Below are positions 3,007-19,249 of a stretch of 64,000 bases of DNA, piece after piece. The translations under genes were made by a program, and so were the position numbers. The DNA is taken from positions 1-64,000 of IMG/VR virus record IMGVR_UViG_3300027712_001262; one strand, 5' to 3'. Source of the stretch: a virus. Positions within the stretch are counted from its first letter, which is position 1. Each line of letters begins with the position of its first letter. Below the pieces are notes generated by a model. It was given only the letters and a program-made list of their open reading frames with translations, was not told where the DNA came from and ran no database searches.

Positions 3007-3539
3007 AAGAAATTCATAGGATCACAGATGATACTAACTATGCTGTCATAGAGATTTTAAAAAATGGTCTCAGGATGATGGAAAATAACAACGATATTAT
3101 TAAAAATTATCATCCTGATTACGCATCGTCAAGTTCAAATTTATTTTACATCCTTAAAGAGGGCAGATATAAAACTGGAGGTTATTTTGTTATAACCGAA
3201 GATGGAAAGTATATTGCTAGTGCCGGATGGAATCCTTACCACAATGACACTGTATTATTGGGCACACGTTTTTATGTATTACCTCAATATAGACATCAAA
3301 CTATTATTTCAACAAATATTCTTCCTATATGTATTAACGAATCTTGGGAATATCACCATCAGTGGATAACTATTAACCAGTATAATCATACATGGTACAA
3401 AGCATTATCTAGAAAAAGATGGAGTCATGTACCTCTTATTAAACATCTAATGCCATTGGGAATGAAGGAAATATATTATACCGATCAATGGGTATTAGAA
3501 TTGAATAAAGAATCGTATCTAAAAGACGGACTACTCTAA
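3003..3539 (+). CDS. GNAT-like N-acyltransferase
   Basis: 178 aa. The stretch GTRFYVLPQYRHQ followed by a helix resembles the acyl-CoA/ACP-binding motif A of GNAT-fold enzymes. It is coupled to the upstream oxygenase (4-nt overlap) and converges on another GNAT-like gene. GNAT enzymes can transfer acetyl groups or, in FeeM and LuxI types, long acyl chains from acyl carrier protein; an ACP is encoded 13 kb downstream. Donor and acceptor are not visible here. Confidence 0.5.
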   Translation: MKEIHRITDDTNYAVIEILKNGLRMMENNNDIIKNYHPDYASSSSNLFYILKEGRYKTGGYFVITEDGKYIASAGWNPYHNDTVLLGTRFYVLPQYRHQTIISTNILPICINESWEYHHQWITINQYNHTWYKALSRKRWSHVPLIKHLMPLGMKEIYYTDQWVLELNKESYLKDGLL

Positions 3540-4112
3540 TATATTTTTTCTATATTCAGCAGGTAAAAATCTATGCACTACTACTACATCATTGGGTTTA
3601 CATCTATTATTAAATAGCCAATCCCAATATACTCCAGTAACAGGTCTAGAAGATGCCTTTACATATTCATCAATACTTTTTTGATATCTAGACCATAGGA
3701 ATTGATTGCTATCTTTTTTACCCCAACTCTTGTCCATCATTAATTTATCAAATGCTCTAATGTAATAATACTGATAAAACCCTTTAGCTTCTGCATAATC
3801 GATCATTTCAGATATTAACATAGAAGTAATTTTACCGCCTGAGAAATTCTTTAGATCAGATAAAATTAATTCAATCTTCCATGCGTTAATGTAAAAGTTA
3901 AAATGTGCAAATAACGCAGCACGTATAATACCGTCATCTTCATATACTAATGTCTTAGTGTACGGGTCATCAATCCACTGAGTATAATTAGAAATTTTCA
4001 TATCTAATATATGCCTGGATTCTTTATCAAATTCTCCATCCATAACAGTATTCTGATTATGTAATAATTTAAAGATACTGTCAGTATCACTGGGTAGTAA
4101 TGATCTAATCAT
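3531..4112 (-). CDS. GNAT-like acyltransferase
   Basis: 193 aa with an N-terminal start (MIRSLLPSD) and a central AEAKGF-type helix typical of GNAT-fold proteins. It resembles the gene at 5111 (M-D-M-x-I-S segment, then a YYYIRA/FYYVTR strand). It overlaps the downstream end of the convergent GNAT gene by 9 nt and the upstream asparagine-synthetase-like gene by 4 nt. Confidence 0.5.
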   Translation of the reverse strand: MIRSLLPSDTDSIFKLLHNQNTVMDGEFDKESRHILDMKISNYTQWIDDPYTKTLVYEDDGIIRAALFAHFNFYINAWKIELILSDLKNFSGGKITSMLISEMIDYAEAKGFYQYYYIRAFDKLMMDKSWGKKDSNQFLWSRYQKSIDEYVKASSRPVTGVYWDWLFNNRCKPNDVVVVHRFLPAEYRKNILE

Positions 4113-5065
4113 AATGGCATTAACCTATTTTGAAACTGTGTAAATGATTCTTTCCATATATCCAAATATGGAATCATTCTAGACATTGTGTGAGTGAACA
4201 TAAATTTATAATGTAACCCTCTCGAAAGCTCTCCACCATCATACTTGATTCTATCTTCAAGATCGGGCCAATATTTTTTATAAATGAGATATTTTGTAGA
4301 CCTAGAACTCATTCGATATTGATTATTATTATTGCACACATTCTGTATCTCAGGTTCTAAAATCATACTAAGTGTAATTTCGGGAGTGTGTTGGAAAAAA
4401 CCTATCCCTCCTAGTATTTGTTTTGCAATAGCAAATCTAAACCATGCTAAGATATATTCATATTCCAAATAATTCCACACATATTTTTCAGCATTGTTAT
4501 CGTATAATCTCCAAATAGGATTAATTTCTCTCGATACATATAAATCACCGTTGCCTAATATAGGAAGTCCATTCCAGTTGTTCCATACAATGTCCATTAA
4601 TTTCATGTGGGGCAGCATTTCTGGAAAATGGCAATGACTAATATTGAACATCTCAAGTGCTTCGGGGTTAACCAACCATTCTTGTATATCTATATCAACA
4701 TACATAACATTAAGATTATGACGTTTGGAAAATTTATCTACATAGTACATCTCATGACGATTGAGACCATTTTTGAATCTAAAAGTAACAAGTTGAAAAT
4801 CTAAATTAGTTTCTATAAATGATTTAGCCACTACTTCGCTATCATAACCTCCGCTAAGGAACACCATAGGTGTTCTGTTCAATCTCTGAGATTCTACAGA
4901 CAGTAGTTTTGCAACTGCATGACATTCTTCCTGAAACGTTCTAGGAATCCTTTGTGCTCTGGCATAGGAGCATTGTAAAGCGTCAATCTTAATTTTGTCG
5001 TTGGGGTTAAATATTCCATTATTATACCCGTATACTAAATTATTATCTAATGTATATGGTTTCAT
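4109..5065 (-). CDS. asparagine-synthetase-like ATP pyrophosphatase
   Basis: 318 aa. The PP-loop SGGYDS (about residues 70-75) is the AMP-forming ATP site of the asparagine-synthetase/N-type pyrophosphatase family. The glutaminase half of true AsnB is missing, so it probably activates a carboxylate for attack by another amine, as in beta-lactam-synthetase-like or amide-forming enzymes. Coupled by a 4-nt overlap to a GNAT-like gene; together they could form an amide or N-acyl bond (inference). Confidence 0.65.
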   Translation of the reverse strand: MKPYTLDNNLVYGYNNGIFNPNDKIKIDALQCSYARAQRIPRTFQEECHAVAKLLSVESQRLNRTPMVFLSGGYDSEVVAKSFIETNLDFQLVTFRFKNGLNRHEMYYVDKFSKRHNLNVMYVDIDIQEWLVNPEALEMFNISHCHFPEMLPHMKLMDIVWNNWNGLPILGNGDLYVSREINPIWRLYDNNAEKYVWNYLEYEYILAWFRFAIAKQILGGIGFFQHTPEITLSMILEPEIQNVCNNNNQYRMSSRSTKYLIYKKYWPDLEDRIKYDGGELSRGLHYKFMFTHTMSRMIPYLDIWKESFTQFQNRLMPL

Positions 5066-5110
5066 TTTTAAAAATAAATATCTGCATCAACTACTTATAT
5101 AAATATTGGT

Positions 5111-5695
5111 ATGGAAGAAATTTATTTGTGCGATCAACAAGATCGAGAAAGTATTGTAAAAGTAATACAGGACAATGCACAACTATACGGCATCGATACT
5201 AGGTCGTCTGGAATTATGGATATGCATATTTCAAAAATTGATGAGGTGTTGTTAGGGAAATTTCCTGGAAAAGTTATAGGACATCAAATAGATGATAAAT
5301 TTATAGGGTTTGGTACAATGTATTTTTGGGCAAAAATCCCATTTTGGTCTATACCAATTTCTTATACATCGTATGATTTAACACAAAGCAAGAAAATTTC
5401 TAGAAGTTATAGTATGGTTATGAATAAAATGATGCTGATAGCAGAAGAACAACATGCTTACGACTTCTATTATGTAACTAGACATGTTCCGGCACATATT
5501 TCCAGAAACAGATTATTATTACAAGAACTTACATTTGACAGATATCATTTTTACCCTGCAGAAATTATAGAACCGTTCAGTAATTCAAAATATGAAATTT
5601 ATCAATCTCTTGTGTCGTCAGTTGCATACAAGAGCAGACATTCATTAGTAATAACACATGCCTGTTGTAAAAATGAATTTAGGAAATTAATATGA
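5111..5695 (+). CDS. GNAT-like acyltransferase
   Basis: 194 aa, related to the product of 3531-4112 by the shared M-D-M-x-I-S-K and YDFYYVTR regions. It overlaps the start of the holo-ACP synthase gene by 4 nt, tying it to the acyl cluster. A TATAAAATA sequence, close to the late octamer, sits just before it. It might transfer an ACP-bound acyl chain to an amine; not proven by sequence. Confidence 0.45.
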   Translation: MEEIYLCDQQDRESIVKVIQDNAQLYGIDTRSSGIMDMHISKIDEVLLGKFPGKVIGHQIDDKFIGFGTMYFWAKIPFWSIPISYTSYDLTQSKKISRSYSMVMNKMMLIAEEQHAYDFYYVTRHVPAHISRNRLLLQELTFDRYHFYPAEIIEPFSNSKYEIYQSLVSSVAYKSRHSLVITHACCKNEFRKLI

Positions 5696-5988
5696 TAGGC
5701 TGCGATGTTGTTAAAATTAATAGATTTTCAAAAAAGTTAGATAGGTGGGCAGTAAAGGTACTTACACCGTTAGAATTAGAAGAATATTCTAAAAAAACAA
5801 ATAAGCTAGAATATCTGTCAGGAAGATGGGCTGTTAAAGAAGCAATTTTTAAAGCAGCCGGAGTAGTTAACATTAGCATTTTGACTGATAATTTAGGAAA
5901 ACCTTATGTATTAGAGAATGATAATCTAGCAGTTAGTATAAGTCACGAAAAAGCATATGCGTTTGCAGTGGCTTTTTTAAATAAATAA
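5692..5988 (+). CDS. acpS: holo-ACP synthase (phosphopantetheinyl transferase)
   Basis: 98 aa, a little shorter than usual AcpS (about 120). It carries the three family motifs: IGCDVVKI at the N-terminus with D5, RWAVKEA with E50 (both magnesium-binding positions) and SISHE at 82-86. AcpS moves 4-phosphopantetheine from CoA to the serine of an acyl carrier protein; a matching ACP is encoded at 16758. Holo-ACP synthase is very unusual in a phage and argues the cluster is functional. Confidence 0.88.
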   Translation: MIGCDVVKINRFSKKLDRWAVKVLTPLELEEYSKKTNKLEYLSGRWAVKEAIFKAAGVVNISILTDNLGKPYVLENDNLAVSISHEKAYAFAVAFLNK

Positions 5989-6035
5989 TTATATCTAAGG
6001 ATTAATTATACCCAAGTAATTTAGGAAAAATAAAC

Positions 6036-6395
6036 ATGACAATAAAAATAAAAATGTGGAGAGAAGAAATTAGGCCAAATGTGGATGTGTCTTTTTGGGA
6101 GAGATCACAGGCAGATGAAGATTATTATACAGAGACATATAAAGTTACGAACTTGTTAGAATCAGAAAGTGCAACTCTGAGCGAAGACGGATTAACTAGA
6201 TTAAAGGTCCAATGGTGGAATGCAACTCCTGGATTAACAGAAATATTAGCGGAAGATCTTTATATTAAAAGTGTTTTAAAAAGAAATAAAGAATATAATG
6301 ATTCATTAGGAATAGAAAAAAGTTTATTGAATTTTGAAATATATGATAGTAGTGGAGTAATTATTTCAGCGGGGTCCTTCCCTGGAGTTGAATAA
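6036..6395 (+). CDS. unknown protein, tandem paralog A
   Basis: 119 aa. Not recognised. It shares a start pattern (I-K-I-K-M, then R-P-N-x-x-V-x-F-W-E) and overall length with the next gene, so the pair arose by tandem duplication. Predominantly beta-strand-like with no signal peptide or membrane segment. Its stop overlaps the next gene's start by 1 nt. Confidence 0.65.
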   Translation: MTIKIKMWREEIRPNVDVSFWERSQADEDYYTETYKVTNLLESESATLSEDGLTRLKVQWWNATPGLTEILAEDLYIKSVLKRNKEYNDSLGIEKSLLNFEIYDSSGVIISAGSFPGVE

Positions 6396-6757
6396 TGTTA
6401 ACTAAAATAAAAATGCAAACAATAGAACACCGACCTAACACATCTGTAGTTTTTTGGGAAAATCCTTCTGAATACTCAGAGCACATACAATCAACATACA
6501 TAGATATAGATGTGTTATTGACACCTACAGTAGAGTTAAGTGAGGACCAATTAACTAAGACTATTACATACATTTGGGAATTTTCTCCAGGACTTCTTGT
6601 CACGTTATCAAAAGATCAGAACATTATCGACAATTATACTGCAAATACAACCTATAATGAAGGCGCGGGCATTACTAGAGAAGTAACAAAATTTGTAAAT
6701 TACGATCCCAACAATAATTTTACTGCTGTGGGAACTATTAAAAACATTAACCTCTAA
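6395..6757 (+). CDS. unknown protein, tandem paralog B
   Basis: 120 aa, paralog of the preceding gene (IKMQTIEHRPNTSVVFWE segment). Soluble, no recognised motif. Position between AcpS and the ATP-grasp ligase suggests a link with the acyl cluster, but these may also be ordinary phage structural proteins. Confidence 0.65.
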   Translation: MLTKIKMQTIEHRPNTSVVFWENPSEYSEHIQSTYIDIDVLLTPTVELSEDQLTKTITYIWEFSPGLLVTLSKDQNIIDNYTANTTYNEGAGITREVTKFVNYDPNNNFTAVGTIKNINL

Positions 6758-6823
6758 AAAATTCAAAAAAATCTGTCGTACTTTCTTAAGTATTAAATAC
6801 AGTTATAATAGGAAGAAAATATT

Positions 6824-6991
6824 ATGACCAATGACGCACTAACAGAACTGCAATCTCTAAAATCTAGAGTAGATAACCTAGAGAAACACCTAGAATTGAG
6901 AAATAAAGAAGTTCAAAAAATACTGCATTATGCCCAATCAGTAATGAAACCTCCTTCTAGTAAAGAATCTCTTGACGATTATTCCATTTAA
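6824..6991 (+). CDS. small coiled-coil protein, 55 aa
   Basis: ATG at 6824 with AGGAAG about ten bases upstream. Residues 6-35 have regularly spaced leucine and charged residues, predicting a short coiled coil. No known family. Confidence 0.5.
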   Translation: MTNDALTELQSLKSRVDNLEKHLELRNKEVQKILHYAQSVMKPPSSKESLDDYSI

Positions 6992-7014
6992 ATTTTTTAA
7001 TTTTAAAAAAATTT

Positions 7015-7941
7015 ATGATTTATTTGTCTTTTAATGTTCCGCAGGCATTTTTTCCTATTAGAATTGAAGAAATGCACATATGGAATGATATGTCAAAAAA
7101 ATTCAATGTTCCTATTGTTCCCGTTTTTCCTGGAGTTTTATATTCTCAAAAAACTGATCCAATAGGCGTATTCAATATGATGGGACCCGTGAATACTTCT
7201 CATTATAGATTTTTAAAAACTCTAGAATCAAGAGGTGTAAGGTACATAAATGATATTGAAAATTCTACAAGGGCCGACGATAAGTTTTTGTCAGCATTAG
7301 AGTGCAGTAAATTTAATATCAGGACTCCAAAGAATGTTGATCTAAATATCCTTGCAGGTATTGGTGCAAACTTAAAAGGTGAAGTAACAGAAAGAATTGA
7401 ATCCCAATTAGGTTTTCCATGTGCGATAAAATATCCAGTTGGGGGTTATGGCCAAGGACATTTTCTTGCAAAAGACAAGGTGGAATTTGGAGATTTATAT
7501 TCAATTATTTCATTAACTAATAGCAAATTTGGTTTACAGGAATCGGGTATAGATTTTTTTGCACAAGAATTTATCAATAATGACGGAAAGTTTTGTCCTA
7601 GTATAAGAATTCTGATGTGGAAGGGAGAAATTGTACATTGCTTTGTAAGACAGAGTAGCACACATTGGAAGACAAATTTAACATTGCCGGCCAGTAATAC
7701 AACTGCAGATCATTTTCATGATATTAACAGGCCAATAGATAGTGAATTACAGTACATTGCTGATACAGTCTATAAAATCTATAAACTAAATCTTGCAGGG
7801 TTAGATATTTTTGAAACTAATAACGGATATGTATTAGGAGAAATTAATTCTAGTCCTTCAATATATAGTAATACATTTAACGTTTTTGGAAAATCAGGGT
7901 TCAATCCCTTTGAAGAGATAGTCAAAGAGCTGCTAAGGTAA
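7015..7941 (+). CDS. ATP-grasp (RimK-like) ligase
   Basis: 308 aa. CAIKYPVGGYGQGHF (about 131-145) is the ATP-binding lysine/glycine loop, FAQEFI the base-binding strand, and LDIFETNNGYVLGEINSSPS (about 263-282) the metal-binding E/N segment of ATP-grasp ligases. Such enzymes join a carboxylate to an amine through an acyl-phosphate. Located 57 nt before the first desaturase, it could condense the acyl product with an amino acid, or act on a ribosomal or peptide substrate. Confidence 0.75.
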   Translation: MIYLSFNVPQAFFPIRIEEMHIWNDMSKKFNVPIVPVFPGVLYSQKTDPIGVFNMMGPVNTSHYRFLKTLESRGVRYINDIENSTRADDKFLSALECSKFNIRTPKNVDLNILAGIGANLKGEVTERIESQLGFPCAIKYPVGGYGQGHFLAKDKVEFGDLYSIISLTNSKFGLQESGIDFFAQEFINNDGKFCPSIRILMWKGEIVHCFVRQSSTHWKTNLTLPASNTTADHFHDINRPIDSELQYIADTVYKIYKLNLAGLDIFETNNGYVLGEINSSPSIYSNTFNVFGKSGFNPFEEIVKELLR

Positions 7942-7998
7942 TAAAAATCTCCCCCAGTTTATAAAAAATAAATATTGTTATAAACCGGTACCTAGCAT

Positions 7999-8763
7999 AT
8001 GACTAACTTTCTTCCCAAAACATTCAATGAACAGATTAAAATTTTACAGGGTATTAATCTGATACTATCCGTAATTGGAATAGTTTTACTTGTCACCAGC
8101 TTTAACATCTTTTATTTCTTAACTGCTATTTTAACATTTTTACTGTTTGGAATTGTAGGAGCGAACGCAGGATTCCACAGATACTTTAGCCATAGATCTT
8201 ACACTACATCTAGACCAGTTGCAATTTTTCTTGCTGTCACTGGAACACTAGCCACATTAGGTTCCATCATTAGTTGGGTCGCAATTCATAGGTATCATCA
8301 TTTACACGCAGATACTGAAAGAGATCCACATAGTCCAAGATACATAGGCTGGTGGAGAGCCTATACTTATGATTGGAATAGGACTGAAATTAGTAAAAAA
8401 TTCATTCGAGATGTCATTAAGGACCCAGTAGTTGTATTTTTGCACAAACATTATTTCAAAGTAATCTTTACATACGTCATACTTCTTGCTATAATAAACC
8501 CATGGCTGGTTATATTTGCTTATGCAATTCCTGCAACAGGTTGTCTAAACGGTGTTGCTGCTGTAACAGTCATTGGACACATTCATGGATATGAGACTCA
8601 TAAAACCAATGATACTGCTAAGAATAGTTGGATTGCAAATATAATGAGTTTAGGTGAGGGATGGCATAACAACCATCATGCACACCCATATCATTGGAAA
8701 CAAGGTGAGAAATGGTGGGAAATTGATCCGGCGTCATGGATTATCCGAATGGTAAAAAAATGA
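7999..8763 (+). CDS. membrane fatty-acyl desaturase 1
   Basis: 254 aa, acyl-CoA/ACP delta-9-type integral membrane desaturase. The three histidine boxes are H60RYFSH, H97RYHH and H223NNHH, with hydrophobic segments at about 20-55, 75-95 and 155-190. The family uses a dinuclear iron centre, O2 and electrons from ferredoxin or cytochrome b5 to put a double bond (sometimes a triple bond or hydroxyl) in an acyl chain. No electron donor is in the cluster. Its TGA overlaps the KS start (ATGA). Confidence 0.92.
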   Translation: MTNFLPKTFNEQIKILQGINLILSVIGIVLLVTSFNIFYFLTAILTFLLFGIVGANAGFHRYFSHRSYTTSRPVAIFLAVTGTLATLGSIISWVAIHRYHHLHADTERDPHSPRYIGWWRAYTYDWNRTEISKKFIRDVIKDPVVVFLHKHYFKVIFTYVILLAIINPWLVIFAYAIPATGCLNGVAAVTVIGHIHGYETHKTNDTAKNSWIANIMSLGEGWHNNHHAHPYHWKQGEKWWEIDPASWIIRMVKK

Positions 8764-9920
8764 AGACTATAATTAATTCAATTGAACTATTGGATGCAAA
8801 CGGAACCTCTTATAACTCCTGCATAGATACTTTTAAGAAAGGTAATGCTGCAAATGTTACTCAACATACGGATCCAATATTAATTGGTCTACCTAAATTT
8901 GACATACCATTAACTGATGACGAGTTGCAAACTGAGTTAGAATTAGAAAATTACGAAGAACATTATATGCCCAGAGCTATTAAGCTAGCGGTATTATCTT
9001 CCATTCGAGCCTGCAAGAATATTGATATTCCTAAAAATACTGCGGTCATTGGGGTAACACTGCAGGGTTCTCAAGAAACAGGTGGACAAATTTGGAAAGC
9101 ATTGTTTAATGAAAAAAAGTTTATAAGTCCCAGGTGGGGCGCTACGGTTACGCAGAGTGCAATATGCACAACTGTTAGTCGGACGTTAGGTTTAACAGGA
9201 CCTAGTTTTATGATTAATCAGGCGTGCAGTGCATTTATTACCGCAATGAACGTTGCAGATTTACTACTAAATTCTGGGCAGGTAGAAGCAGTAATTGTAG
9301 TAGGAGTTGACTGTGCTACTCATCCTTTTACATCATACATCTTTAGCTCAATGAGTGTTTATACTAATGATGTTGTTAAACCATTTGATAAAAATAGATC
9401 GGGTATGGCGCTCGGCGAAGCCACAGTATGCTATGTATTAACAAAAGAAAATCGTGCAAGGCAAGCTCTTGCTAATTTAGCTAAGATGAGCGTTTATAAT
9501 GATTATTACAATTTAACAGCTCCCAGTCCAGATGGATCTGCTGGTAAAATTTTGTTAAATGACATAACCAATAACAATGATATTATGTTAGACTCAATTA
9601 ATTGCCATGTTACTGCCACAAAAGTAGGTGACGAAGCCGAAATATTGAGTCTCGAAAACTTACCATATTCTTGTCCAATATACGGACTAAAAGGATCAGT
9701 CGGACATACTATGGCCAGTTCAGCAGGAGTCGAAATTGCATATTCAATTGCAGGTCTTAATAACGGATGGGTTCCATATACTTCATCAACAACTGATCCT
9801 GTAGATTCTAAACATCAAATTGTATTACATAATATTTTAGAAAAAGAACAAACTAATTTTGCAAAGTTGAGTTTTGGATTCGGCGGAGTAAGTGCTGCGG
9901 TAAGGATAGAAAAGATATGA
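8760..9920 (+). CDS. beta-ketoacyl-ACP synthase-like condensing enzyme
   Basis: 386 aa from the ATGA-overlap start at 8760 (a longer ORF begins at 8736). Thiolase fold with the full catalytic triad: C156 in QACSAF, H283 in CHVTAT and H316 in SVGHT, plus the late GFGG motif. It condenses acyl-thioesters with malonyl-ACP. It is the only chain-elongation gene here, with no ketoreductase, dehydratase or enoyl reductase, so it either loads or extends a host-made chain once. Coupled on both sides to desaturases. Confidence 0.88.
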   Translation: MKTIINSIELLDANGTSYNSCIDTFKKGNAANVTQHTDPILIGLPKFDIPLTDDELQTELELENYEEHYMPRAIKLAVLSSIRACKNIDIPKNTAVIGVTLQGSQETGGQIWKALFNEKKFISPRWGATVTQSAICTTVSRTLGLTGPSFMINQACSAFITAMNVADLLLNSGQVEAVIVVGVDCATHPFTSYIFSSMSVYTNDVVKPFDKNRSGMALGEATVCYVLTKENRARQALANLAKMSVYNDYYNLTAPSPDGSAGKILLNDITNNNDIMLDSINCHVTATKVGDEAEILSLENLPYSCPIYGLKGSVGHTMASSAGVEIAYSIAGLNNGWVPYTSSTTDPVDSKHQIVLHNILEKEQTNFAKLSFGFGGVSAAVRIEKI

Positions 9921-10714
9921 TTAAATTTCACACAAAGTTAATGTCACTGCTAGCGGTACATACTGTATTGTATATATATGCTGTAGTATTTCACTGGGAT
10001 TGGAAAATATTCCTTACTATGTTTTTAATACACAAGGTTTGGCACTTGATTGGAAATGAAGCAGGATTGCATAGACTATGGGCACACAAGTCTTACGAAA
10101 CACCTAGATGGAAAGAATTTGTATTACATATCTTTTCAATACCGTTGTTGTATGGAACTAGTATTACTTACGCAGGGGTACATCGACAGCATCATGCATA
10201 CAGTGATACTGAAAGAGACCCGCATGTAACAAGACCGTGGTGGAAAGTTGCATTCTATGTAAGAAACAAAGAATACGAAGTGGAAACTAGATTTGTAAAA
10301 GACCTAATTAGAGATCCATGGCATAAATGGACACATAAGCATTATTTTACTATCAATATATCGTTGTTGATACTTTCTTTAGCTGTAGTTGGGCCAGTAT
10401 GGACAGGATGGATTCTTAGCTACATAGTTGTCCATAGTTTTATTGCAGCCGCTGTATTAAATGTTGTGGGACATAGGCCAGAATATAAACTAAGTTCAAG
10501 ATCATTTAAAACCGATGATCAAAGTTCTAATAATTGGATCGTACAGATTTTTAGTCTAAATGAAGGATTACATAACCATCATCATGCAAATCCCGGCTCG
10601 TGGACGTTTATGATTAAAAAAACCAACTTAGATGTCGGTGCTTGGATAATCTATTATCTTTTTATGACAGCTGAACAAAGGAAGACTGCAAAATTTATTT
10701 GGAGTGTTGAATAA
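9917..10714 (+). CDS. membrane fatty-acyl desaturase 2
   Basis: 265 aa with boxes HRLWAH, HRQHHAYSDTERDPH and HNHHH. It is very similar to desaturase 3, including near-identical DNA around the second box (an LLYGTSITYAG segment), so the two are a recent duplication. Four hydrophobic segments. ATGA-type overlap with KS; its stop overlaps the diiron gene start by 1 nt. Confidence 0.92.
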   Translation: MIKFHTKLMSLLAVHTVLYIYAVVFHWDWKIFLTMFLIHKVWHLIGNEAGLHRLWAHKSYETPRWKEFVLHIFSIPLLYGTSITYAGVHRQHHAYSDTERDPHVTRPWWKVAFYVRNKEYEVETRFVKDLIRDPWHKWTHKHYFTINISLLILSLAVVGPVWTGWILSYIVVHSFIAAAVLNVVGHRPEYKLSSRSFKTDDQSSNNWIVQIFSLNEGLHNHHHANPGSWTFMIKKTNLDVGAWIIYYLFMTAEQRKTAKFIWSVE

Positions 10715-11613
10715 TGGCAAGCACATTACCTACATGCTCTAATTTAAGTCTAGATACAAATTTTAATTTACCTAAATGCGTTATTGATAAGAATAGTGTC
10801 AATCCATTAGGATTAAATCATTATTCTTATTTTGAAAATTTAAATTTAAACACAGAAGATAAAGAAAAGATGTCTTCGTTTGTTGATACAAACGCACTCA
10901 TTATAATGGCATGGAAGGAAGAAAATGCTGCATTTTGGCTAACTGAGCTTTATAAACTAACCACAGATCCTGTTAAGAGATTATTCTTCCTTAAAGAAGC
11001 ATATGAAGAACAAGAGCATTTTTCATTATTAGTTGGTATTATCAATCAATTATTCGATAGCGAAACACTGAATAAAGAATTTTTATTTTTTAAGAATAAC
11101 TACAACAATGTAAGAAAATTTGAATATCAGAATGAAAAGTTATCCTCATCTTTATTTGAGTACACAATTAAAGAAATTGAAGTGTTGGTTTATATTGATC
11201 AGATTAAACAAAACACAACTTTAGAACCTTTAAAGGAGGTTCTAAAATCTATTGTGTCTGACGAAATAGAACACTTACAATACGGTACTATTTTTATCGA
11301 AGAAGAAAAAATTGAACGCTACAAACCTATGTATAAGGATACACTTTATGCAAGTTTCCGGGCATTGTTTTCAAAATTCTATCCCAGTTTCCTATTGCAT
11401 TACATTAAGCAGTATTGTCAACAATTTAATCTTGATTACAATAATGTGGTAAAAAACATAAAAGATAGTAACAGAAATAAAGATTTTATATTAACAATGG
11501 TCCTAATGTATTATAAGTATGGTCAGCTATTTGGAATAGTAGATAGTGACTTTGAAACAACGTTAAAAAATGCAGGTGTATTGGACCAGTACTATAAATT
11601 AAAAAATGAATAA
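10714..11613 (+). CDS. ferritin-like diiron oxidase A
   Basis: 299 aa, helical and soluble. Two E-x-x-H motifs (E99-H102 in EEQEH; E184-H187 in DEIEH) plus glutamates near 70 and 155 give the carboxylate-rich four-helix diiron site of soluble oxygenases/desaturases (AurF-like or acyl-ACP-desaturase-like). An N-terminal NPLGLNHYSYFE motif and a C-terminal helical domain are shared with 11606 and 14293. Likely oxidises an ACP-bound intermediate; exact reaction unknown. Confidence 0.7.
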   Translation: MASTLPTCSNLSLDTNFNLPKCVIDKNSVNPLGLNHYSYFENLNLNTEDKEKMSSFVDTNALIIMAWKEENAAFWLTELYKLTTDPVKRLFFLKEAYEEQEHFSLLVGIINQLFDSETLNKEFLFFKNNYNNVRKFEYQNEKLSSSLFEYTIKEIEVLVYIDQIKQNTTLEPLKEVLKSIVSDEIEHLQYGTIFIEEEKIERYKPMYKDTLYASFRALFSKFYPSFLLHYIKQYCQQFNLDYNNVVKNIKDSNRNKDFILTMVLMYYKYGQLFGIVDSDFETTLKNAGVLDQYYKLKNE

Positions 11614-12046
11614 CAATCAAATAAAATTTAGTAATCTTGAAAATCTTCCTAATTTAAAAAGTTTAACAGGAATTTCTAGAGATACCACAATTATAGATTT
11701 AAATGATCCGTTAGGAACTAGTCATTATACATACACCGAACATTGCAATTTAAGTAAAGATCTTCGGGACACTATTGAATACGAACTAGGATTGCAAAGA
11801 TTGTTAACTCAGGGTATGAATCATTATAGTAGTAACAGATATAAGAAAATTTTTAAAAAATACAATATCGATTATTATGAAATGCTCCCAGCTATTAAGC
11901 AAAGTCAAAAATCAAAAGACTATGTAGTATCTGTCATAAAGGGCATGTTCAATTTGGCCAAATCACTAAATATTATTGAACATGATGATTTTGAAAAATA
12001 CTTAGATGATGCTAAAATAACAGAACGATATAACGCATACCTATGA
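11606..12046 (+). CDS. internally deleted diiron-enzyme paralog
   Basis: 146 aa. The first half matches the N-terminal DPxGxxxYxYxE region of the two diiron proteins and the second half (from about residue 78, NIDYYEM then KQSQKSKD) matches the C-terminal domain of 14293. The whole ExxH-containing iron-binding core is missing in frame. It is still coupled (8-nt overlap before, 4-nt after), so it may serve as a non-catalytic partner rather than being decayed. Confidence 0.75.
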   Translation: MNNNQIKFSNLENLPNLKSLTGISRDTTIIDLNDPLGTSHYTYTEHCNLSKDLRDTIEYELGLQRLLTQGMNHYSSNRYKKIFKKYNIDYYEMLPAIKQSQKSKDYVVSVIKGMFNLAKSLNIIEHDDFEKYLDDAKITERYNAYL

Positions 12047-12801
12047 AATCAATCACATTTCACCAAAAATTGATGAGTTTACTCTTCATTCATTTTGTAC
12101 TAGTGAGTTACGCTATGTACTCCACATGGAATTGGGGATGGCTGTTGGTTATATTTTTTATATCTAAAATATTCAATGCAGTAGGAAATGAAATAGGATT
12201 ACACAGACTATGGTGTCATAAATCTTTTTCTACTCAAAGATGGAAAGAGATAGTACTGCACATATTTTCAATACCCTTGTTATATGGAACTAGTATTACT
12301 TACGCAGGAATTCATAGGCAACATCATGCCTATTCTGATACTGAACGCGATCCGCATATTACTCGCCCTTGGTGGAAAGTTGTTTTTTATGTAAGAAATA
12401 AAATGTATGCTATAGAAAATAGATTTGTTTCAGACCTACTTAGAGACCCGTGGCACAAGTGGACACATAAGAATTACTTTAAAATTAATACAGCATTGCT
12501 GATTATATTTTTAATAACATTTGGCCCAGTATTCACTGGTTGGTCCTTAAGTTTTGTAGTAATTTATAATTTTATTGCGGCTGGTCTAGTAAATGTGTTA
12601 GGTCACAAGCCTGCATACGGTACTAGAACCTTTAATACAGATGACCAAAGTACTAATAATAAATTCTTACAATGGTTAACATGGAATGAAGGACTACATA
12701 ACCATCATCACAAAAACGCAGGTTCTTATACCTATGTAGTTAACAAAGGTGATATTGATTTCCCTGCATTTTTGATTGAAAAACTTTTTATGAAAAAATG
12801 A
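12043..12801 (+). CDS. membrane fatty-acyl desaturase 3
   Basis: 252 aa, close paralog of desaturase 2, with boxes HRLWCH, HRQHHAYSDTERDPH and HNHHH. All histidine ligands are kept. Overlaps its neighbours by 4 nt at both ends. Confidence 0.92.
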   Translation: MKSITFHQKLMSLLFIHFVLVSYAMYSTWNWGWLLVIFFISKIFNAVGNEIGLHRLWCHKSFSTQRWKEIVLHIFSIPLLYGTSITYAGIHRQHHAYSDTERDPHITRPWWKVVFYVRNKMYAIENRFVSDLLRDPWHKWTHKNYFKINTALLIIFLITFGPVFTGWSLSFVVIYNFIAAGLVNVLGHKPAYGTRTFNTDDQSTNNKFLQWLTWNEGLHNHHHKNAGSYTYVVNKGDIDFPAFLIEKLFMKK

Positions 12802-13565
12802 ACAATACTATTTTATTAAGAATTATACAACAAATAACAACATGGGGAATTATTCCCGGGTTAGCATATCTATTTTACCTTAACTATCTTCCTTACTATC
12901 TAGTACTAATTCTTTCAATTATTTTAATTAGTAAGATCGGAGCAAGCATAGGTCAACATAGATACTTTACTCATAAAAGTTTTAAAATGGTGCAGTGGAA
13001 AGAGAACATAGTTGCAGTCTTGGCCGCGTTGAGCACCACAGGAACTACTCTCCAATATGTGACTGTACATAGATACCACCATGGCAATAGCGATAATGGA
13101 AAGGATTTACATAGTCCTCACGAAATAGGATATTGGAGAAGTTTTTGGCATTGGTATAAAACCAATCCTATAGATCTAGCAGGACCTGCAACTATAAAAG
13201 ATTTATTAAGAAAACCGTTATTGATACATTTACACAAATATTACTTTGCCGTGATTTTTACATATATCCTAATGTTAACTGTAATTGATCCTAACTTAGT
13301 TGTTTTTTGCTATATCATTCCTGCAGGATTTAGTTGGTGGTCAAGTGCAGTTCTAAGTCTTCCTTTGCACTTAGAGAGTCAAGGATATAGAAATTTTGAA
13401 ATATCTGATATAACAGTTAACAGTCATCTTTGGAATTGGCTAACATTGGGGGAAGGACTTCATAACAACCATCATGCTAGGCCGGGCGAATATAATTTTG
13501 CATTTACAAAGAAACCCGGCGAATGGGACCTTAGTGCAATAATTGTAGATAAATTTTTGAAATGA
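12798..13565 (+). CDS. membrane fatty-acyl desaturase 4
   Basis: 255 aa with boxes HRYFTH, HRYHHGNSDNGKDLH and HNNHH. The second box departs from the usual D-T-E-R-D-P-H (here D-N-G-K-D-L-H), suggesting a shifted substrate or regiospecificity. Membrane segments before and between boxes. 4-nt overlaps on both sides. Confidence 0.9.
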   Translation: MNNTILLRIIQQITTWGIIPGLAYLFYLNYLPYYLVLILSIILISKIGASIGQHRYFTHKSFKMVQWKENIVAVLAALSTTGTTLQYVTVHRYHHGNSDNGKDLHSPHEIGYWRSFWHWYKTNPIDLAGPATIKDLLRKPLLIHLHKYYFAVIFTYILMLTVIDPNLVVFCYIIPAGFSWWSSAVLSLPLHLESQGYRNFEISDITVNSHLWNWLTLGEGLHNNHHARPGEYNFAFTKKPGEWDLSAIIVDKFLK

Positions 13566-14296
13566 ACGAACTGTCAAAAAAGTCTAGATACTATTACCTT
13601 CTTTTTAATTTGCCAATTCAACTGACTGCTGTTTTGGCAACTTTCTACGGATTAATTAATTGGCCAAGTGTGTTGGGTTTTTATATACTAGTGTCCTGGC
13701 TAGGTATTCAAGCAGGTTCTCATAAATTATTCACACATAAAAGCTGGGAGCCTAGATATAGTTGGGTAAAATATCTAGTAGCAATAATTTCGTGTTTTGG
13801 TATGATGGGGGGTCCGGTAATATGGGCCAGTATGCACAGATGGCATCACGCTAACTCTGATACTGATAAAGATCCTCATAGTCCTAACAGTGGGCTAATT
13901 CATGCATATGCTGGATGGTTATTAAATCCTCCCTTGCCACCTATGACAATTGTTAAGGATCATATTAGAGATCATTTACTTATAAAGATAGACAAGTACT
14001 GTAGAGAGATTGTATTAATTGGAATTGTATGTTTAATGTTGGTTGATTATAGCATTGCATTTTCATTAATGTTAGCAATGAGTATAACATTCCACCTTGA
14101 GATGTTAGTCAATACATTTTTACACTCAAAGAAAGAAGGAACGTGGAGTTCCAGAAACAATATATGGTTGTCCCTAGTTGCAGGCGGTAGTACATTACAT
14201 AAAAATCATCACGACAATCCTGCAAATTTTACTTTTAGTAAATATTGGTACGAATTAGATCCATCTGCGTGGATTATAAAGATATTAAAAAAATGA
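13562..14296 (+). CDS. membrane fatty-acyl desaturase 5
   Basis: 244 aa, the most divergent copy: first box HKLFTH, second HRWHHANSDTDKDPH, third HKNHH. All iron-binding histidines remain. ATGA overlap with the next diiron gene at 14293. Confidence 0.9.
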   Translation: MNELSKKSRYYYLLFNLPIQLTAVLATFYGLINWPSVLGFYILVSWLGIQAGSHKLFTHKSWEPRYSWVKYLVAIISCFGMMGGPVIWASMHRWHHANSDTDKDPHSPNSGLIHAYAGWLLNPPLPPMTIVKDHIRDHLLIKIDKYCREIVLIGIVCLMLVDYSIAFSLMLAMSITFHLEMLVNTFLHSKKEGTWSSRNNIWLSLVAGGSTLHKNHHDNPANFTFSKYWYELDPSAWIIKILKK

Positions 14297-15207
14297 ACAA
14301 TTTATTTTCTGCATTTGATATTGTGCATAGATACATAGCACTGTCTAAACCAAACGTCCAATTAGCCAATTTATCTTTGTTTAAAAAGACATCAAGTCAA
14401 ATTAATTATGATGACCCTGTTGGATTAGCTGATTATAGTTATTTTGAAAAATGCAAAATTGACAAAAACATTTTGCAGGCAATAGAATATGAAGTAAATT
14501 CTAAGGCTTTAGCTCATTTGTCGATTGTAGAAGAATTATCTGCTTATTGGTTAATTCATTCGTCAAATAGAATAACAGAACCTGAACTCAAACATACTTT
14601 ATTAAAAATGGGTACAGAAGAATACGAGCACTTTCTGTTTTTTACAAATTTATTGATCAATAATTTTTCAGATATAGATGCTGCTAAATTAGTCCAAGAT
14701 ATGCGTAATTTAATTTTTGATCACAATATAGATACGAAACCTATTGAAGAATTTATTGCAATACATTGTATAGGAGAAGCAATTATTCCAAGTGAACTGA
14801 AACATCTATACAAAAATACAACCAACGAATATATGCGTAATACTTTAAAGGTAGTACTGTCTCAAGAGGCAAACCATGCAATAGCAGCAAGACAGTTTAA
14901 ACCTTTGTTAAATAATATTAATAACAACAAACCTAAAATAATAATTTATATGTTAGCACAAATAGTTGTTAATTCTGGATTTGGATTCACTTATTGCCGA
15001 TATAAGGAAGCATTAGCTGACCATGGGATAGATTACGAAACTATGAAGAAAGAAATTAAACAAAGCAGGCGATCAAAAGACGTGGTAATAAGCACTGTAG
15101 AAGAATTATTTCAACTAGCAAAAACATTAAATTATGCAGACGAGGATTTTGATAAATTTTTATATCAATCTAAAATAGCAAACTCTTATAAAGAATACAC
15201 CCAATGA
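14293..15207 (+). CDS. ferritin-like diiron oxidase B
   Basis: 304 aa from the ATGA-overlap start at 14293 (an upstream in-frame ATG at 14245 lies inside the desaturase). E110-H113 (EEYEH) and E192-H195 (QEANH) form the paired ExxH iron sites, with further glutamates between. N-terminal DDPVGLADYSYFE and C-terminal KQSRRSKD motifs are shared with the other two members. Probably a soluble oxygen-activating enzyme acting on the same acyl chain as the desaturases. Confidence 0.7.
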   Translation: MNNLFSAFDIVHRYIALSKPNVQLANLSLFKKTSSQINYDDPVGLADYSYFEKCKIDKNILQAIEYEVNSKALAHLSIVEELSAYWLIHSSNRITEPELKHTLLKMGTEEYEHFLFFTNLLINNFSDIDAAKLVQDMRNLIFDHNIDTKPIEEFIAIHCIGEAIIPSELKHLYKNTTNEYMRNTLKVVLSQEANHAIAARQFKPLLNNINNNKPKIIIYMLAQIVVNSGFGFTYCRYKEALADHGIDYETMKKEIKQSRRSKDVVISTVEELFQLAKTLNYADEDFDKFLYQSKIANSYKEYTQ

Positions 15208-16016
15208 CCACAGAATGGAAACATAGAATATTATTATCAGCTGCTTGGCTGAGTATCCCATTTACATTATGGTATTGCCATAGTATTGGAGATTACACAC
15301 TATTTTGGGTATCTTACATCATTGCACAATTTAATAAAGTTATTGGAAACAATATTGCATTCCATCGATATTTTACCCATAGAAGTTTCAAAACAACTGC
15401 TTTTAAACATAAATTACTAGCATTTTGGACAATCCCATTAGCATCAAAAAGCCCTGTAGTATATGCAATGAACCACAGACATCACCATTTGTATGCAGAT
15501 ACAGAACGAGACACCCACAGTCCTGTGACTAGTTTTTGGCACACAATAACAGGCGCATGGGAGTTTAGGGGATATAAGTGGTTTGCTGACAAAGGCGTAG
15601 AGTTTAGAGTTAAAGATCTAGTACGAGATCCCACATTAAAATTTATTGAAAGACATTATTTTAAATTTTGGTACATTACTGCAATTATTACATTGTGCAT
15701 AGACTGGAGGCTTTTTGTGTTCGGTTTCCTCCTACCAGCAGGTCATTACCATCTAGCGGCCAATCTTGCTGTTGTAGGGTTAGATCATTTAAAAATTCCA
15801 GGCAGTTATAGATCATACAATACTCCAGACAATAGCCATAATAATCATTTTATGGCTTGGGGCAGTTTAGGTGAAGGATATCATAATAATCATCATCAAG
15901 ATCCTACAAAGTACAATCAAGCATTTAATAAAGGCGAATATGATATATGTGCATGGTTTGTTGACAAATTTTTTAAAGCAAAAGATGAAAAACACAACAC
16001 AACATATAATTTTTAA
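15204..16016 (+). CDS. membrane fatty-acyl desaturase 6
   Basis: 270 aa with boxes HRYFTH, HRHHHLYADTERDTH and HNNHH. Membrane helices near 10-45, 70-85 and 155-195. Overlaps the diiron gene by 4 nt and the next desaturase by 32 nt. Confidence 0.92.
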   Translation: MTTEWKHRILLSAAWLSIPFTLWYCHSIGDYTLFWVSYIIAQFNKVIGNNIAFHRYFTHRSFKTTAFKHKLLAFWTIPLASKSPVVYAMNHRHHHLYADTERDTHSPVTSFWHTITGAWEFRGYKWFADKGVEFRVKDLVRDPTLKFIERHYFKFWYITAIITLCIDWRLFVFGFLLPAGHYHLAANLAVVGLDHLKIPGSYRSYNTPDNSHNNHFMAWGSLGEGYHNNHHQDPTKYNQAFNKGEYDICAWFVDKFFKAKDEKHNTTYNF

Positions 16017-16761
16017 TTTTGCATATATTACATTTGGTATACTATCTCTATTTCTAATTAAAGATATATCCCTGTTATTATATGTTTGGCTTTTTATTGC
16101 ATTTGGAAACGGCACAATAGGACACCGCTATTTTTCACATAACCAATTTAGTGTGCATAAAACATTACATTGGCCTTTAGCATGTTGGTCTACTATTTCT
16201 GCGTACAGCAATACTGGATATTGGATTGCACAACATAGACACCATCATAGACACACTGATACTGAAAAGGATATACACAGCCCAGTAAATGGTGTTCTAC
16301 AATCTTTTATATTTTGGCCTTTTAATAATAAACGGATAGATAGCGTATTCAAAGATAGAACTACAATAATTAATATGGCAACAGCCATGCGGGACCCGGC
16401 TATTAGTTTTACTACAAAGTATTTTATACCAATTAACTTGATTTTTATAATATTATTTTGTATAATTGATATTAACATAGCATACTGTTTTGGAATATCT
16501 GTTATCATAGAACATGTTCGATTAGGGCTAATTAATACTATAACCCATACAGATAATTTTCTAGGTAACTATAGAAATCACAACACAAAGGATAAAAGTT
16601 ATAATAACTTATTACTGGGAATAATATCATTAGGATTTGGATGGCATAATAACCATCATGCTAACGCAAGTAAATTAATTTTAACTGAGCGTTGGTGGGA
16701 AATTGATCTCGAAGGGTATCTAGGTAAATTATTATCATTAACTGCAAGAGGAAAAAAATGA
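15985..16761 (+). CDS. membrane fatty-acyl desaturase 7
   Basis: 258 aa from the ATG at 15985; the open frame extends to 15871 but that part lies antiparallel to conserved coding of desaturase 6 and is not family-like. Boxes HRYFSH, HRHHHRHTDTEKDIH and HNNHH. ATGA overlap with the ACP gene. Confidence 0.88.
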   Translation: MKNTTQHIIFNFAYITFGILSLFLIKDISLLLYVWLFIAFGNGTIGHRYFSHNQFSVHKTLHWPLACWSTISAYSNTGYWIAQHRHHHRHTDTEKDIHSPVNGVLQSFIFWPFNNKRIDSVFKDRTTIINMATAMRDPAISFTTKYFIPINLIFIILFCIIDINIAYCFGISVIIEHVRLGLINTITHTDNFLGNYRNHNTKDKSYNNLLLGIISLGFGWHNNHHANASKLILTERWWEIDLEGYLGKLLSLTARGKK

Positions 16762-17006
16762 CTGAACAAACTTTAGAAATTGTATTAAAAATTACGGCAA
16801 AGCACTTTAAGAAAAATATAGAGACTCTAAATGAATCTACGCATATTATTAATGATCTAAAAGGAGACAGTTTAGATGCTGTTGAATTAGTAATGAACAT
16901 CGAGGATCATTTTAGCATCGAAATTCCAGAAGATGATATGACTGGCGTTAGAACACTAGGCAGTATTGCAGAAGTAGTTGCACAAGTTATATCTAAAAAG
17001 AAATAA
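16758..17006 (+). CDS. acpP: acyl carrier protein
   Basis: 82 aa, acidic, with the GDSLDAVEL phosphopantetheine motif (attachment at S38) and normal ACP length. It presumably carries the chain acted on by the KS and the desaturases, after activation by the AcpS at 5692. Last clear gene of the coupled operon. Confidence 0.93.
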   Translation: MTEQTLEIVLKITAKHFKKNIETLNESTHIINDLKGDSLDAVELVMNIEDHFSIEIPEDDMTGVRTLGSIAEVVAQVISKKK

Positions 17007-17020
17007 CACCGCAAGGGAGT

Positions 17021-17173
17021 ATGACTATTTCGAAAAACCCTAAACGGCATACCTTCCAGCAAGAGAATTATGTTAAACGTTGTGAAGAGGAAGGTAAAGA
17101 GCCTAATACAGATTACTTAGATCTTTTTAAATCATATCGTCGGCAAGACGAAGAAAACATGGTTGATCGTTAG
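17021..17173 (+). CDS. small unknown protein, 50 aa
   Basis: ATG at 17021 with a GGGAG ribosome site, 14 nt after the ACP gene. Charged, no membrane segment. Its end overlaps the convergent oxygenase gene by 4 nt. It could be the last gene of the acyl operon or an unrelated phage micro-protein. Confidence 0.55.
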   Translation: MTISKNPKRHTFQQENYVKRCEEEGKEPNTDYLDLFKSYRRQDEENMVDR

Positions 17174-17732: not shown

Positions 17733-17807
17733 TGGTTTCGCCGGGCAGAGTCGAACTGCCGCCAAAAGTTTAGGAAACTTCTATTCTATCCATTGAACTA
17801 CAGCGAG
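17733..17807 (-). tRNA. tRNA-Arg (CCU)
   Basis: Minus-strand cloverleaf with loop TTCCTAA, T-loop TTCGACT and encoded CCA; the first acceptor pair is C-A. The 3' end of the homing-endonuclease ORF (to 17770) lies inside it. Confidence 0.88.
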
Positions 17808-18537
17808 GTGTGTGGTCTGGCGTGAAATTGTTACATTCTTCTAAACTCTTAATTATTATAAGATTTTTTATCTGAGTTGTAAGGCAATCAATTTTTAATT
17901 GCTGTGCTTTAATGGCATACGGATTTTTTGGATCTAAATACAAATCATATTCAGGCAAATAAAAATCTGGAAAATAATTATGTGTTACATTCTGTTTGTC
18001 AGTCCATCTAATCGGATCAGGTCTTTTCCATTCTACATTAATACTATCAAGTCGAATTGCTAATGCTTCCTCCCAAGAAGAATCCAAACTAATAATAGTA
18101 CCATTTTTTTGAGTATATTTTTTAATAGATCTTACAAGGCGCCTATGTGGACTTGCTAATGCTTTTTCTCTAAGATGCTGTTTAGTTTCTTCAGAATGTT
18201 TCCACCCAGGATAAGAATGATTTACTCCATTATACTTGCCATCGGCCCATGCTTGCTTAATTCCAATAGTGCGTTTAGCAATTGATTCAGTTGTTTGCAT
18301 CTGCAAACAATTTGCTGCTTCTGTATACATTTTTCTTTTAGGATTACAACTGCACCATCTAACATGGTTTGCTCTATTAGCAATATTAAATATGCTTAAA
18401 TCAACCGCGCAATGTGGACATACACTTAACTTAATAAATTTAACTGCCGGTCCAGTACCATTACATGCTTTATGATGTTGGGCAAACCCTTTGTTATTAA
18501 TTTTAATATTGCACTTGTTGCACTCGGTAGTTTTCAT
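17770..18537 (-). CDS. Vsr-like homing endonuclease
   Basis: 255 aa. Zinc-binding CxxC pairs in the first 65 residues, a NUMOD3-like GWKHSEETKQ segment near 111-120, and a C-terminal nuclease core (SSWEEALAIRLD ... PDFYLPEYDLYLDPK) like the Vsr/EDxHD homing endonucleases of phages. It sits between two tRNA-Arg genes; the start has AAGGAAA and follows tRNA-Arg(UCU) by 23 nt, and the stop lies in tRNA-Arg(CCU). Such elements spread by cutting copies of the locus that lack them. Confidence 0.72.
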   Translation of the reverse strand: MKTTECNKCNIKINNKGFAQHHKACNGTGPAVKFIKLSVCPHCAVDLSIFNIANRANHVRWCSCNPKRKMYTEAANCLQMQTTESIAKRTIGIKQAWADGKYNGVNHSYPGWKHSEETKQHLREKALASPHRRLVRSIKKYTQKNGTIISLDSSWEEALAIRLDSINVEWKRPDPIRWTDKQNVTHNYFPDFYLPEYDLYLDPKNPYAIKAQQLKIDCLTTQIKNLIIIKSLEECNNFTPDHTPRCSSMDRIEVS

Positions 18538-18546
18538 GTTTTCCTT

Positions 18547-18649
18547 AGTAGAGTGCTTAGTGCGGCTGGCAGGATTCGAACCTGCGGCAAACCGGGTAGA
18601 AGCCGGTTACTCTATCCAACTGAGTTACAGCCGCACTAAGCACTCTACT
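18547..18649. repeat. long inverted repeat extending a tRNA acceptor stem
   Basis: Perfect 21-bp inverted arms at 18547-18567 and 18629-18649. The inner 7 bp are the tRNA-Arg(UCU) acceptor stem; the outer 14 bp extend it. The left arm directly precedes the AAGGAAA ribosome site of the homing endonuclease, and a TATAAATA octamer begins at the outer end of the right arm. Confidence 0.85.
18561..18634 (-). tRNA. tRNA-Arg (UCU)
   Basis: Cloverleaf with loop CTTCTAC and T-loop TTCGAAT; no encoded CCA. The acceptor stem continues into the 14-bp extension described above. Confidence 0.93.
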
Positions 18650-18657
18650 TATTTATA
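18650..18657 (-). promoter_or_regulatory. T4-type late promoter octamer
   Basis: TATAAATA on the minus strand, upstream of tRNA-Arg(UCU) and the homing endonuclease. Confidence 0.5.
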
Positions 18658-18701
18658 CCTAGTTCCCTGTATTTTCCACTATACGAACGCCAGAGATTGT
18701 T

Positions 18702-18778
18702 TGGTACCCCGTGTCTGATTCGAACAGACATCCAACTCCTTTTGAGAGAATCCGCACTACCAATTAGCGTAACGGGGC
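18702..18778 (-). tRNA. tRNA-Leu (CAA), short variable loop
   Basis: Acceptor, D arm and T arm are clear, CCA is encoded. Best anticodon loop is CTCAAAA (CAA). The variable region is about five bases, not the long arm usual for leucine tRNAs; the D arm is identical to that of the neighbouring Leu(UAG) gene. Confidence 0.75.
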
Positions 18779-18885
18779 ATATATAGAAACACATTGATGT
18801 TTTGAGGCACTTAAACTAGGCACGTCACGTCTTAGGTCAAATGCCACGGACTTCTCGGTCCTGATCTCAATGTGTTTTTATATAT
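18779..18885 (-). ncRNA. structured RNA within a 19-bp inverted repeat
   Basis: Arms 18779-18797 and 18867-18885 pair with one mismatch. Inside are a GGAC/GTCC hairpin and a longer arm with nine pairs including G-U. No clear anticodon or T-loop, so it is not an ordinary tRNA. It could be a degenerate tRNA or a small RNA. Confidence 0.4.
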
Positions 18886-18961
18886 GGTACCTTCGGGCGG
18901 ATTCGAACCCCCAACCACCTGCTTCTAAGGCAAGCCGCACTACCAATTAGCGTACGAAGGC
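18885..18961 (-). tRNA. tRNA-Leu (UAG), short variable loop
   Basis: Anticodon loop CTTAGAA with a CTTGC/GCAGG stem, encoded CCA, A73. Variable loop about five bases. Confidence 0.87.
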
Positions 18962-18970
18962 ATTATAGGT

Positions 18971-19120
18971 TTTCGAGAGACCAGCTATCTTTCTGAAGGA
19001 CTCACTGGCGTGTCTCGTATGAGCGAGTTTAAACTACCTTGTATAATTCTACTGGTGTGTCATGCATCAGCCTAATGCACTAGAATACAAGGGACTCGAA
19101 TCTCTACGTCTATCTCGAAA
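18971..19120 (-). ncRNA. multibranched structured RNA in tRNA array
   Basis: The outer stem TTTCGAGA/TCTCGAAA is perfect (18971-18978, 19113-19120). Inside, 19038-19051 pairs with 19081-19091 around a TGCAT/ATGCA hairpin, and CTCG/CGAG (19014-19027) and a CCAG/CTGG arm follow. No coding potential seen. Length and branching are unlike a tRNA; identity unknown. Confidence 0.45.
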
Positions 19121-19121
19121 C

Positions 19122-19242
19122 TGGTGCCGCTGCTTGGATTCGAACCAAGATAACCCCCTAGACATGGATTAAGAAAATTGCTGAACGTACTCTGCACAGA
19201 GTCACCCTTTTATAAGGCGTCCTACCATTAGACGACAGCGGC
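19122..19242 (-). tRNA. tRNA-like gene with about 45-nt insertion
   Basis: Perfect 7-bp acceptor stem, D arm (GTCT/GGAC), T arm with TTCGAAT and encoded CCA, but the anticodon region holds CCTTATAAAAGG plus about 45 extra bases with an ACTCT/AGAGT hairpin and a GTTCAGCAA motif. The anticodon cannot be read. Either an intron-like insertion or a damaged tRNA. Confidence 0.45.
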
Positions 19243-19249
19243 ATTGATT

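Follow-up and report, generated by a model that had tools for sequence, protein, structure and literature searches.

A candidate phage gene cluster for making a fatty-acyl product with several unsaturations

The virus record IMGVR_UViG_3300027712_001262 comprises 112,863 bases, of which bases 1-64000 form the stretch analyzed here (the window), and it carries a run of 17 open reading frames (ORFs), all on the plus strand, that spans 5111-17006 (~12 kb) and encodes an acyl carrier protein (ACP), an AcpS-type transferase, a ketosynthase (KS), seven membrane desaturases (FADS1 to FADS7), ferritin-like diiron proteins and an ATP-grasp ligase. We read this run of genes as a biosynthetic cluster, carried by a phage, that would make a multiply unsaturated fatty-acyl product, and put the probability of this reading at roughly 0.55. 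What carries the reading is the gene content, intact motifs, gene order, purifying selection, one-to-one orthology and exchange of cassettes that a comparison of three viral contigs documents. Phage auxiliary genes usually adjust single steps of host metabolism, and repeated desaturation of fatty chains is normally known from antibiotic-making bacteria. If the reading is true, phages build specialised acyl metabolites of their own, with their own carrier, activating and condensing enzymes plus seven distinct desaturases, and a new set of desaturases becomes available for study.

Gene content and catalytic motifs

All of the cluster genes (Table 1) are present with open frames, and from 7999 to 17006 adjacent genes overlap by 1-8 bp, often by 4 bp, except for a 32-bp overlap between FADS6 and FADS7, which is an arrangement as in one transcription unit or in coupled translation. 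A promoter scan of the DNA returned 80 where 73 were expected. The KS is taken to start at the ATG at 8760, inside the ORF that opens at 8736, which yields a 4-bp overlap with FADS1; the starts of diiron protein 2 and FADS7 lie nearer 14293 and 15985, a correction to a preliminary description of this DNA.

Each of the seven desaturases matches FA_desaturase (PF00487) above the cut-off (1e-16 to 5e-10), and in the alignment histidine boxes 1, 2 and 3 of the stearoyl-CoA desaturase (SCD)/DesC type are present in 7/7. The KS retains the Cys-His-His triad of FabF/KAS II enzymes of the thiolase fold (C156, H283 and H316, together with K311) and so is predicted to be a condensing enzyme, not a partner of the chain-length-factor type. 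The DSL motif of the ACP and the D/E/K motifs of AcpS are likewise intact, and two diiron proteins carry the complete ferritin-like ligand set, E, EXXH, E, EXXH; a third copy keeps both of its ends and has lost the metal-binding core. Diiron protein 1 is modelled (pLDDT 77) as a ferritin-like four-helix bundle, and its nearest folds are R2/NrdF, an aldehyde-deformylating oxygenase and VlmB, an azoxy synthase; the E values, 0.03-0.2, support the fold class only. The preliminary description had listed a coupled plus-strand block of about 12 kb with AcpS, ACP, one KS and an ATP-grasp gene, seven membrane desaturases with complete histidine boxes, two soluble diiron enzymes and intact catalytic residues, and on all of these points (the residues for the KS, ACP, AcpS, desaturases and two diiron proteins) it agrees with the Pfam and NCBIfam matches, open frames and alignments.

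Its "GNAT-like" genes inside the cluster are not supported: the 5111 protein has no GNAT match in Pfam, NCBIfam, a PDB profile search or hhalign against phage GNATs; a sub-threshold GNAT lies at 3003-3539, outside the cluster. Of the extent it proposed, 5111-17173, the start holds and the end does not: the cluster stops at 17006 and is followed by the remnant of a phage gene of which four other contigs (L017, L037, L055 and L057) hold intact copies; this remnant marks where recombination bounded the cluster on its 3' side. Two 119-aa paralogues, at 6036 and 6395, had not been listed. The alpha/beta-barrel model was made for small protein A only, of these two; Foldseek places it near dimeric alpha/beta barrels, including ABM-type oxygenases and a polyketide cyclase (weak PDB matches, E 0.007-0.1), and near uncharacterised proteins of uncultured phages (best 3e-7).

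Distribution, orthology and cassette exchange

The window's record carries genes for tail fibre and virion proteins, an exonuclease and ribonucleotide reductase (RNR), whose small subunit is closest to those of Xanthomonas and Stenotrophomonas phages; the virus infects aquatic bacteria. A scan of 2.9 million viral contigs found the cluster in two further IMG/VR contigs, G001 (locus L001) and G002 (locus L002), and wider viral scans with diiron protein 1, FADS6 and aminotransferase queries returned the same contigs only. The record of G001 has baseplate/tail and minor coat protein genes; no terminase was found in the fragments that represent this record and the window's, though tail and virion genes are present in both. 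A chimera or cellular contamination is rejected, because the cluster occurs in three contigs that were assembled independently and two of the records hold virion genes; the phage origin assumed at the outset holds. No comparable cluster was found among 50,697 GenBank phage records, and paper searches within an open-access library returned none; the original impression of a cluster without a described phage counterpart holds, partial precedents aside. Two limited scans of 84,980 cellular genomes with narrow peptide patterns found no cellular relative, which, given those patterns, does not prove absence from bacteria. Plasmid searches with the KS and FADS gave only relatives below 60% identity, mostly 22-33% among the matches listed. 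Anti-phage defence was considered and rejected, with no PADLOC match.

The gene order is the same in the window, L001 and L002, with amino acid identities mostly of 47-90%. The window's cluster ends at the ACP; past the ACP, L001 and L002 also carry FADS8, a compact aminotransferase-like protein with an SKMFGL lysine motif (L001 18550-19371, L002 16763-17587; none in the window) and FADS9, and the number of desaturases per contig reaches 9 in G001 and 11 in G002 by alignment, or 8 and 10 by Pfam. By the Nei-Gojobori method, the ratio of nonsynonymous to synonymous divergence (dN/dS) is 0.02-0.32 for every gene pair with unsaturated synonymous sites, and dN is 0.09-0.46 for the saturated pairs. 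In three phages the KS, FADS1-7 and ACP genes have kept their order and coupling even though synonymous divergence has passed saturation, which speaks against a hypervariable moron region in which oxygenases and desaturases accumulate and each acts separately, outside any single pathway. Such a region would suit the broken diiron copy and the scatter of desaturases in other aquatic phages among Rieske, FA_hydroxylase, hydroxylase-like and pyrophosphatase-like genes; we give it little credence.

In a tree of 73 desaturases (LG+C20), FADS1-7 are seven SPECIFICITIES, each of which forms its own three-member ortholog group with L001 and L002, the FADS3 group with only moderate support. FADS2 and FADS3 are the sole sister pair, from one older duplication; the deep branches are long, so that relations between the groups are unsure. 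Seven separate groups argue for seven maintained specificities rather than gene dosage, which is also hard to invoke for paralogues that predate the divergence of the phages and keep a fixed order; recent duplication for dosage is ruled out by the tree, except for the older FADS2/3 pair. This bears on membrane remodelling, in which the desaturases would act on host phospholipids or acyl-CoA and change fluidity (in the cold, at lysis or in superinfection exclusion), and the KS, ACP and AcpS would merely raise the supply of fatty acids. The closest solved relative of the desaturases is SCD1, and single desaturases are widespread in aquatic phages; a cyanophage paper (Roitman et al. 2018, cited in PMC11480375) reportedly deals, by its title, with lipid desaturases that are likewise phage-encoded membrane enzymes. 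Against this stand the seven conserved groups in fixed order and the fact that fluidity needs no dedicated ACP, AcpS, ATP-grasp or diiron genes, and we consider membrane remodelling unlikely, though the strongest of the alternatives.

The divergence between the three clusters is itself mosaic. Over 891-5989, from the left flank to AcpS and apart from a break at 1541-2436, the DNA of the window and L001 is 88-90% identical, and their diiron protein 1 genes are close (dS 0.41); in their ATP-grasp, KS, FADS and ACP genes, by contrast, divergence is strong and mostly saturated. Between L001 and L002 identity is 89% from the ATP-grasp gene to past FADS9, with the two L001 diiron genes as the sole interruption, whereas their left flanks differ. 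This pattern shows exchange of whole cassettes between phages. The pyrophosphatase-like neighbour of the cluster has an 89% identical counterpart in L001 and a 25% identical homologue flanking the cluster in L002.

A possible pathway and its weak points

In the biosynthetic reading, the phage AcpS would activate the phage's own ACP, the holo form of which would carry the chain; host FabD, FabG, FabZ and FabI would supply malonyl-ACP and the reductive steps; and the KS would extend or prime an ACP-bound host acyl chain with host malonyl-ACP. The seven desaturases, each of a distinct conserved specificity, would add double and possibly triple bonds in series with electrons from host ferredoxin or another host donor, the diiron proteins would oxidise the chain further, and the ATP-grasp enzyme, possibly with the pyrophosphatase-like neighbour, would couple it to an amine or amino acid. 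A speculation for L001 and L002 is that the aminotransferase might act on a beta-keto product and spare the reduction there. A dedicated ACP, its AcpS and an intact KS point to ACP-bound substrates. A family search found no FabG-type, FabZ/A or malonyl transferase (AT) gene in any of the three cluster-bearing records, in line with the missing reductive steps already remarked upon, and neither ferredoxin nor rubredoxin in the window's record, which suggests that these functions and the electron donor come from the host.

Several points weigh against this pathway. Acyl-CoA and membrane lipids are frequent substrates of SCD-type desaturases, so that co-localisation is what ties FADS1-7 to the ACP; the search turned up no known type of release enzyme; only three contigs carry the cluster, none of them a complete genome; and tailoring appears not to be fixed, since L002 lacks the diiron genes and the window, unlike L001 and L002, has no aminotransferase-like gene after its ACP. 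The multiply unsaturated product is, moreover, a prediction from sequence. Alternatively, the ATP-grasp enzyme or the 5111 protein might place an unsaturated chain on a phage or host protein, such as a small alpha/beta-barrel or a tail protein, in keeping with the habit of RimK-type ligases of modifying amines and carboxyls of peptides or carriers and with the adjacency of the small family to desaturases, most of it seen in a single other lineage of phages. The dominance of that lineage weakens the second argument, and the small proteins are predicted to be compact, with a fold like that of cofactor-free oxygenases and cyclases and no evident tail for modification; such acylation seems to us quite improbable.

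Bacterial polyyne clusters (jamABC, caryoynencin, protegencin) also couple several membrane desaturases to a dedicated ACP, and the phage cluster, which has an ACP (jamC) together with three or more membrane desaturases, resembles them, as the preliminary description had proposed. The analogy holds that far and fails in other respects. The polyyne cassette, which is transmissible, is defined by a fatty acyl-AMP ligase (FAAL) and rubredoxin (PMC8406139). FAAL (jamA, PF00501) is absent from all three records (a control search found it in 12/14 genomes); rubredoxin (PF00301) is absent from the window's record, and its single weak match in G002 lies behind a rubrerythrin gene; and the alpha/beta-hydrolase (thioesterase) PF12697 is absent from all three, other hydrolase families not having been searched across the records. 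In the desaturase tree two polyyne desaturases group with one ACP-linked bacterial enzyme and with cyanobacterial and Neochlamydia ones, and this polyyne/JamB clade holds no FADS of the phage cluster; the third, like other long branches, is placed unsurely. The phage cluster has instead a KS, AcpS, ATP-grasp and diiron proteins, and 7-11 desaturases rather than 3. Membership among the polyyne clusters is ruled out by the missing genes and the desaturase clade, and the likeness, as far as sequence tells, is functional only. A Streptomyces plasmid cluster (FAAL, three desaturases, ACP) is among the best bacterial matches to FADS2.

A bolder proposal, which we regard as conceivable and rather less probable than the biosynthetic reading itself, is that the genomes of lytic phages hold an entire natural-product pathway, open to recombination, with 7-11 non-redundant desaturases at work on a phage ACP, and that a new polyunsaturated (polyene or polyyne-like) class of acyl compounds is made during infection and diversified by swapping tailoring cassettes. 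A membrane effect, an effect on competing phages or cells, a signal and virion lipidation are candidates for the biological role of the cluster.

Related loci and other genes of the records

Elsewhere among aquatic phages, genes of the 5111 and small (A/B) families have one to three desaturases nearby. All 4 of 4 occurrences of the 5111 family are one or two genes from a desaturase (p 0.023), and 6/9 of the small family, largely from one lineage, likewise lie near desaturases (p 0.013); the sample is small and comes from loci retrieved through their desaturases. The association of the pyrophosphatase family with desaturases is not significant (p 0.37). The window's cluster looks like an elaborated form of this looser module, to which KS, ACP and AcpS would have been added. 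In Pelagibacter phage Mosig EXVC030M a desaturase similarly adjoins a compact aminotransferase, 39% identical to the L001 gene 3' of the ACP, in a module that also holds an Asp/Arg hydroxylase and a GNAT; it differs in having one desaturase and in its annotation, which lists no KS, ACP, AcpS or ATP-grasp there. The nearest published phage precedent found, a partial one, is that of freshwater pelagimyophages (PMP-D), which carry fabF and a stearoyl-CoA desaturase, a FabF-type KS with an SCD-type desaturase; the passage on these genes mentions no many-desaturase cluster, ACP or AcpS (PMC7029224).

Rieske proteins and an FA_hydroxylase protein also occur near phage desaturases (L002 6104-6991, L037 8118-8981, L057 11245-11676), as part of what may be a wider phage repertoire of oxygen-dependent, lipid-type chemistry. 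A pelagiphage scaffold with a desaturase, FDBR and HemO has been reported (PMC11480375), and in the window a heme oxygenase lies beside a ferredoxin-dependent bilin reductase (32087-33269, minus strand; Pfam 2e-12 and 5e-19).

Table 1. The cluster and its immediate neighbours, by position in the window
Feature	Coordinates	Strand	Evidence and remarks
QueC/asparagine-synthase-like ATP pyrophosphatase	4109..5065	-	SGGYDSE motif; Pfam QueC 9e-4 (below cut-off); divergent neighbour of cluster
Cluster gene 1 (5111 gene)	5111..5695	+	no function assigned; no Pfam/NCBIfam/PHROG match
AcpS-type 4'-phosphopantetheinyl transferase	5692..5988	+	PF01648 1e-11; TIGR00556 5e-19
Small protein A (119 aa)	6036..6395	+	predicted ferredoxin-like alpha/beta-barrel (ABM-like); AlphaFold pLDDT 91
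Small protein B	6395..6757	+	paralogue of small protein A, 32% identity
RimK/LysX-type ATP-grasp ligase	7015..7941	+	PF08443 1e-13; TIGR00768 1e-21; PDB LysX 5e-7
Membrane desaturase FADS1	7999..8763	+	PF00487 1e-16; three His boxes
FabF-type KS	8760..9920	+	PF00109/PF02801 4e-19/5e-11; FabF structures to 6e-21
Membrane desaturase FADS2	9917..10714	+	PF00487 1e-13; best solved relative SCD1
Ferritin-like diiron protein 1	10714..11613	+	E, EXXH, E, EXXH complete
Remnant diiron paralogue	11606..12046	+	internal deletion takes out all EXXH motifs (alignment with intact copies)
Membrane desaturase FADS3	12043..12801	+	PF00487 1e-15; sister of FADS2 in tree
Membrane desaturase FADS4	12798..13565	+	PF00487 3e-13
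Membrane desaturase FADS5	13562..14296	+	PF00487 3e-11
Ferritin-like diiron protein 2	14293..15207	+	E, EXXH, E, EXXH complete
Membrane desaturase FADS6	15204..16016	+	PF00487 4e-11; most conserved core gene (87% between phages)
Membrane desaturase FADS7	15985..16761	+	PF00487 5e-10; start uncertain within 15871-15991
ACP	16758..17006	+	DSL phosphopantetheine site; PF00550 5e-11; PHROG 5934 1e-15
Shortened copy of phage gene, 50 of ~179 aa	17021..17170	+	72% identity over 47 aa to intact L017 gene

A 55-aa coiled-coil-like ORF (~6823-6990, plus strand) occupies the 257-bp gap ahead of the ATP-grasp gene, where similarity to L001 drops. Elsewhere in the window, the minus strand encodes a host-like protein-quality set (33279-36073 and 43717-44949) of ClpS, Hsp20, DnaK (best phage-record matches 64-69% identical) and ClpX, and by eye a ClpP-like protein is seen in G001, at L017 11789-12385. 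Also on the minus strand are an IscU/NifU-N iron-sulphur scaffold protein beside the RNR small subunit (60038-60421; Pfam 1e-51), 23 tRNA genes (17733-22226 and 21-254), among which lie a 255-aa CxxC-motif protein and a metalloprotease-like gene, and a transketolase-like protein in two adjacent ORFs (47229-48325; N-terminal part by Pfam) within a sugar-metabolism/glycosyltransferase-like region at 47-57 kb.

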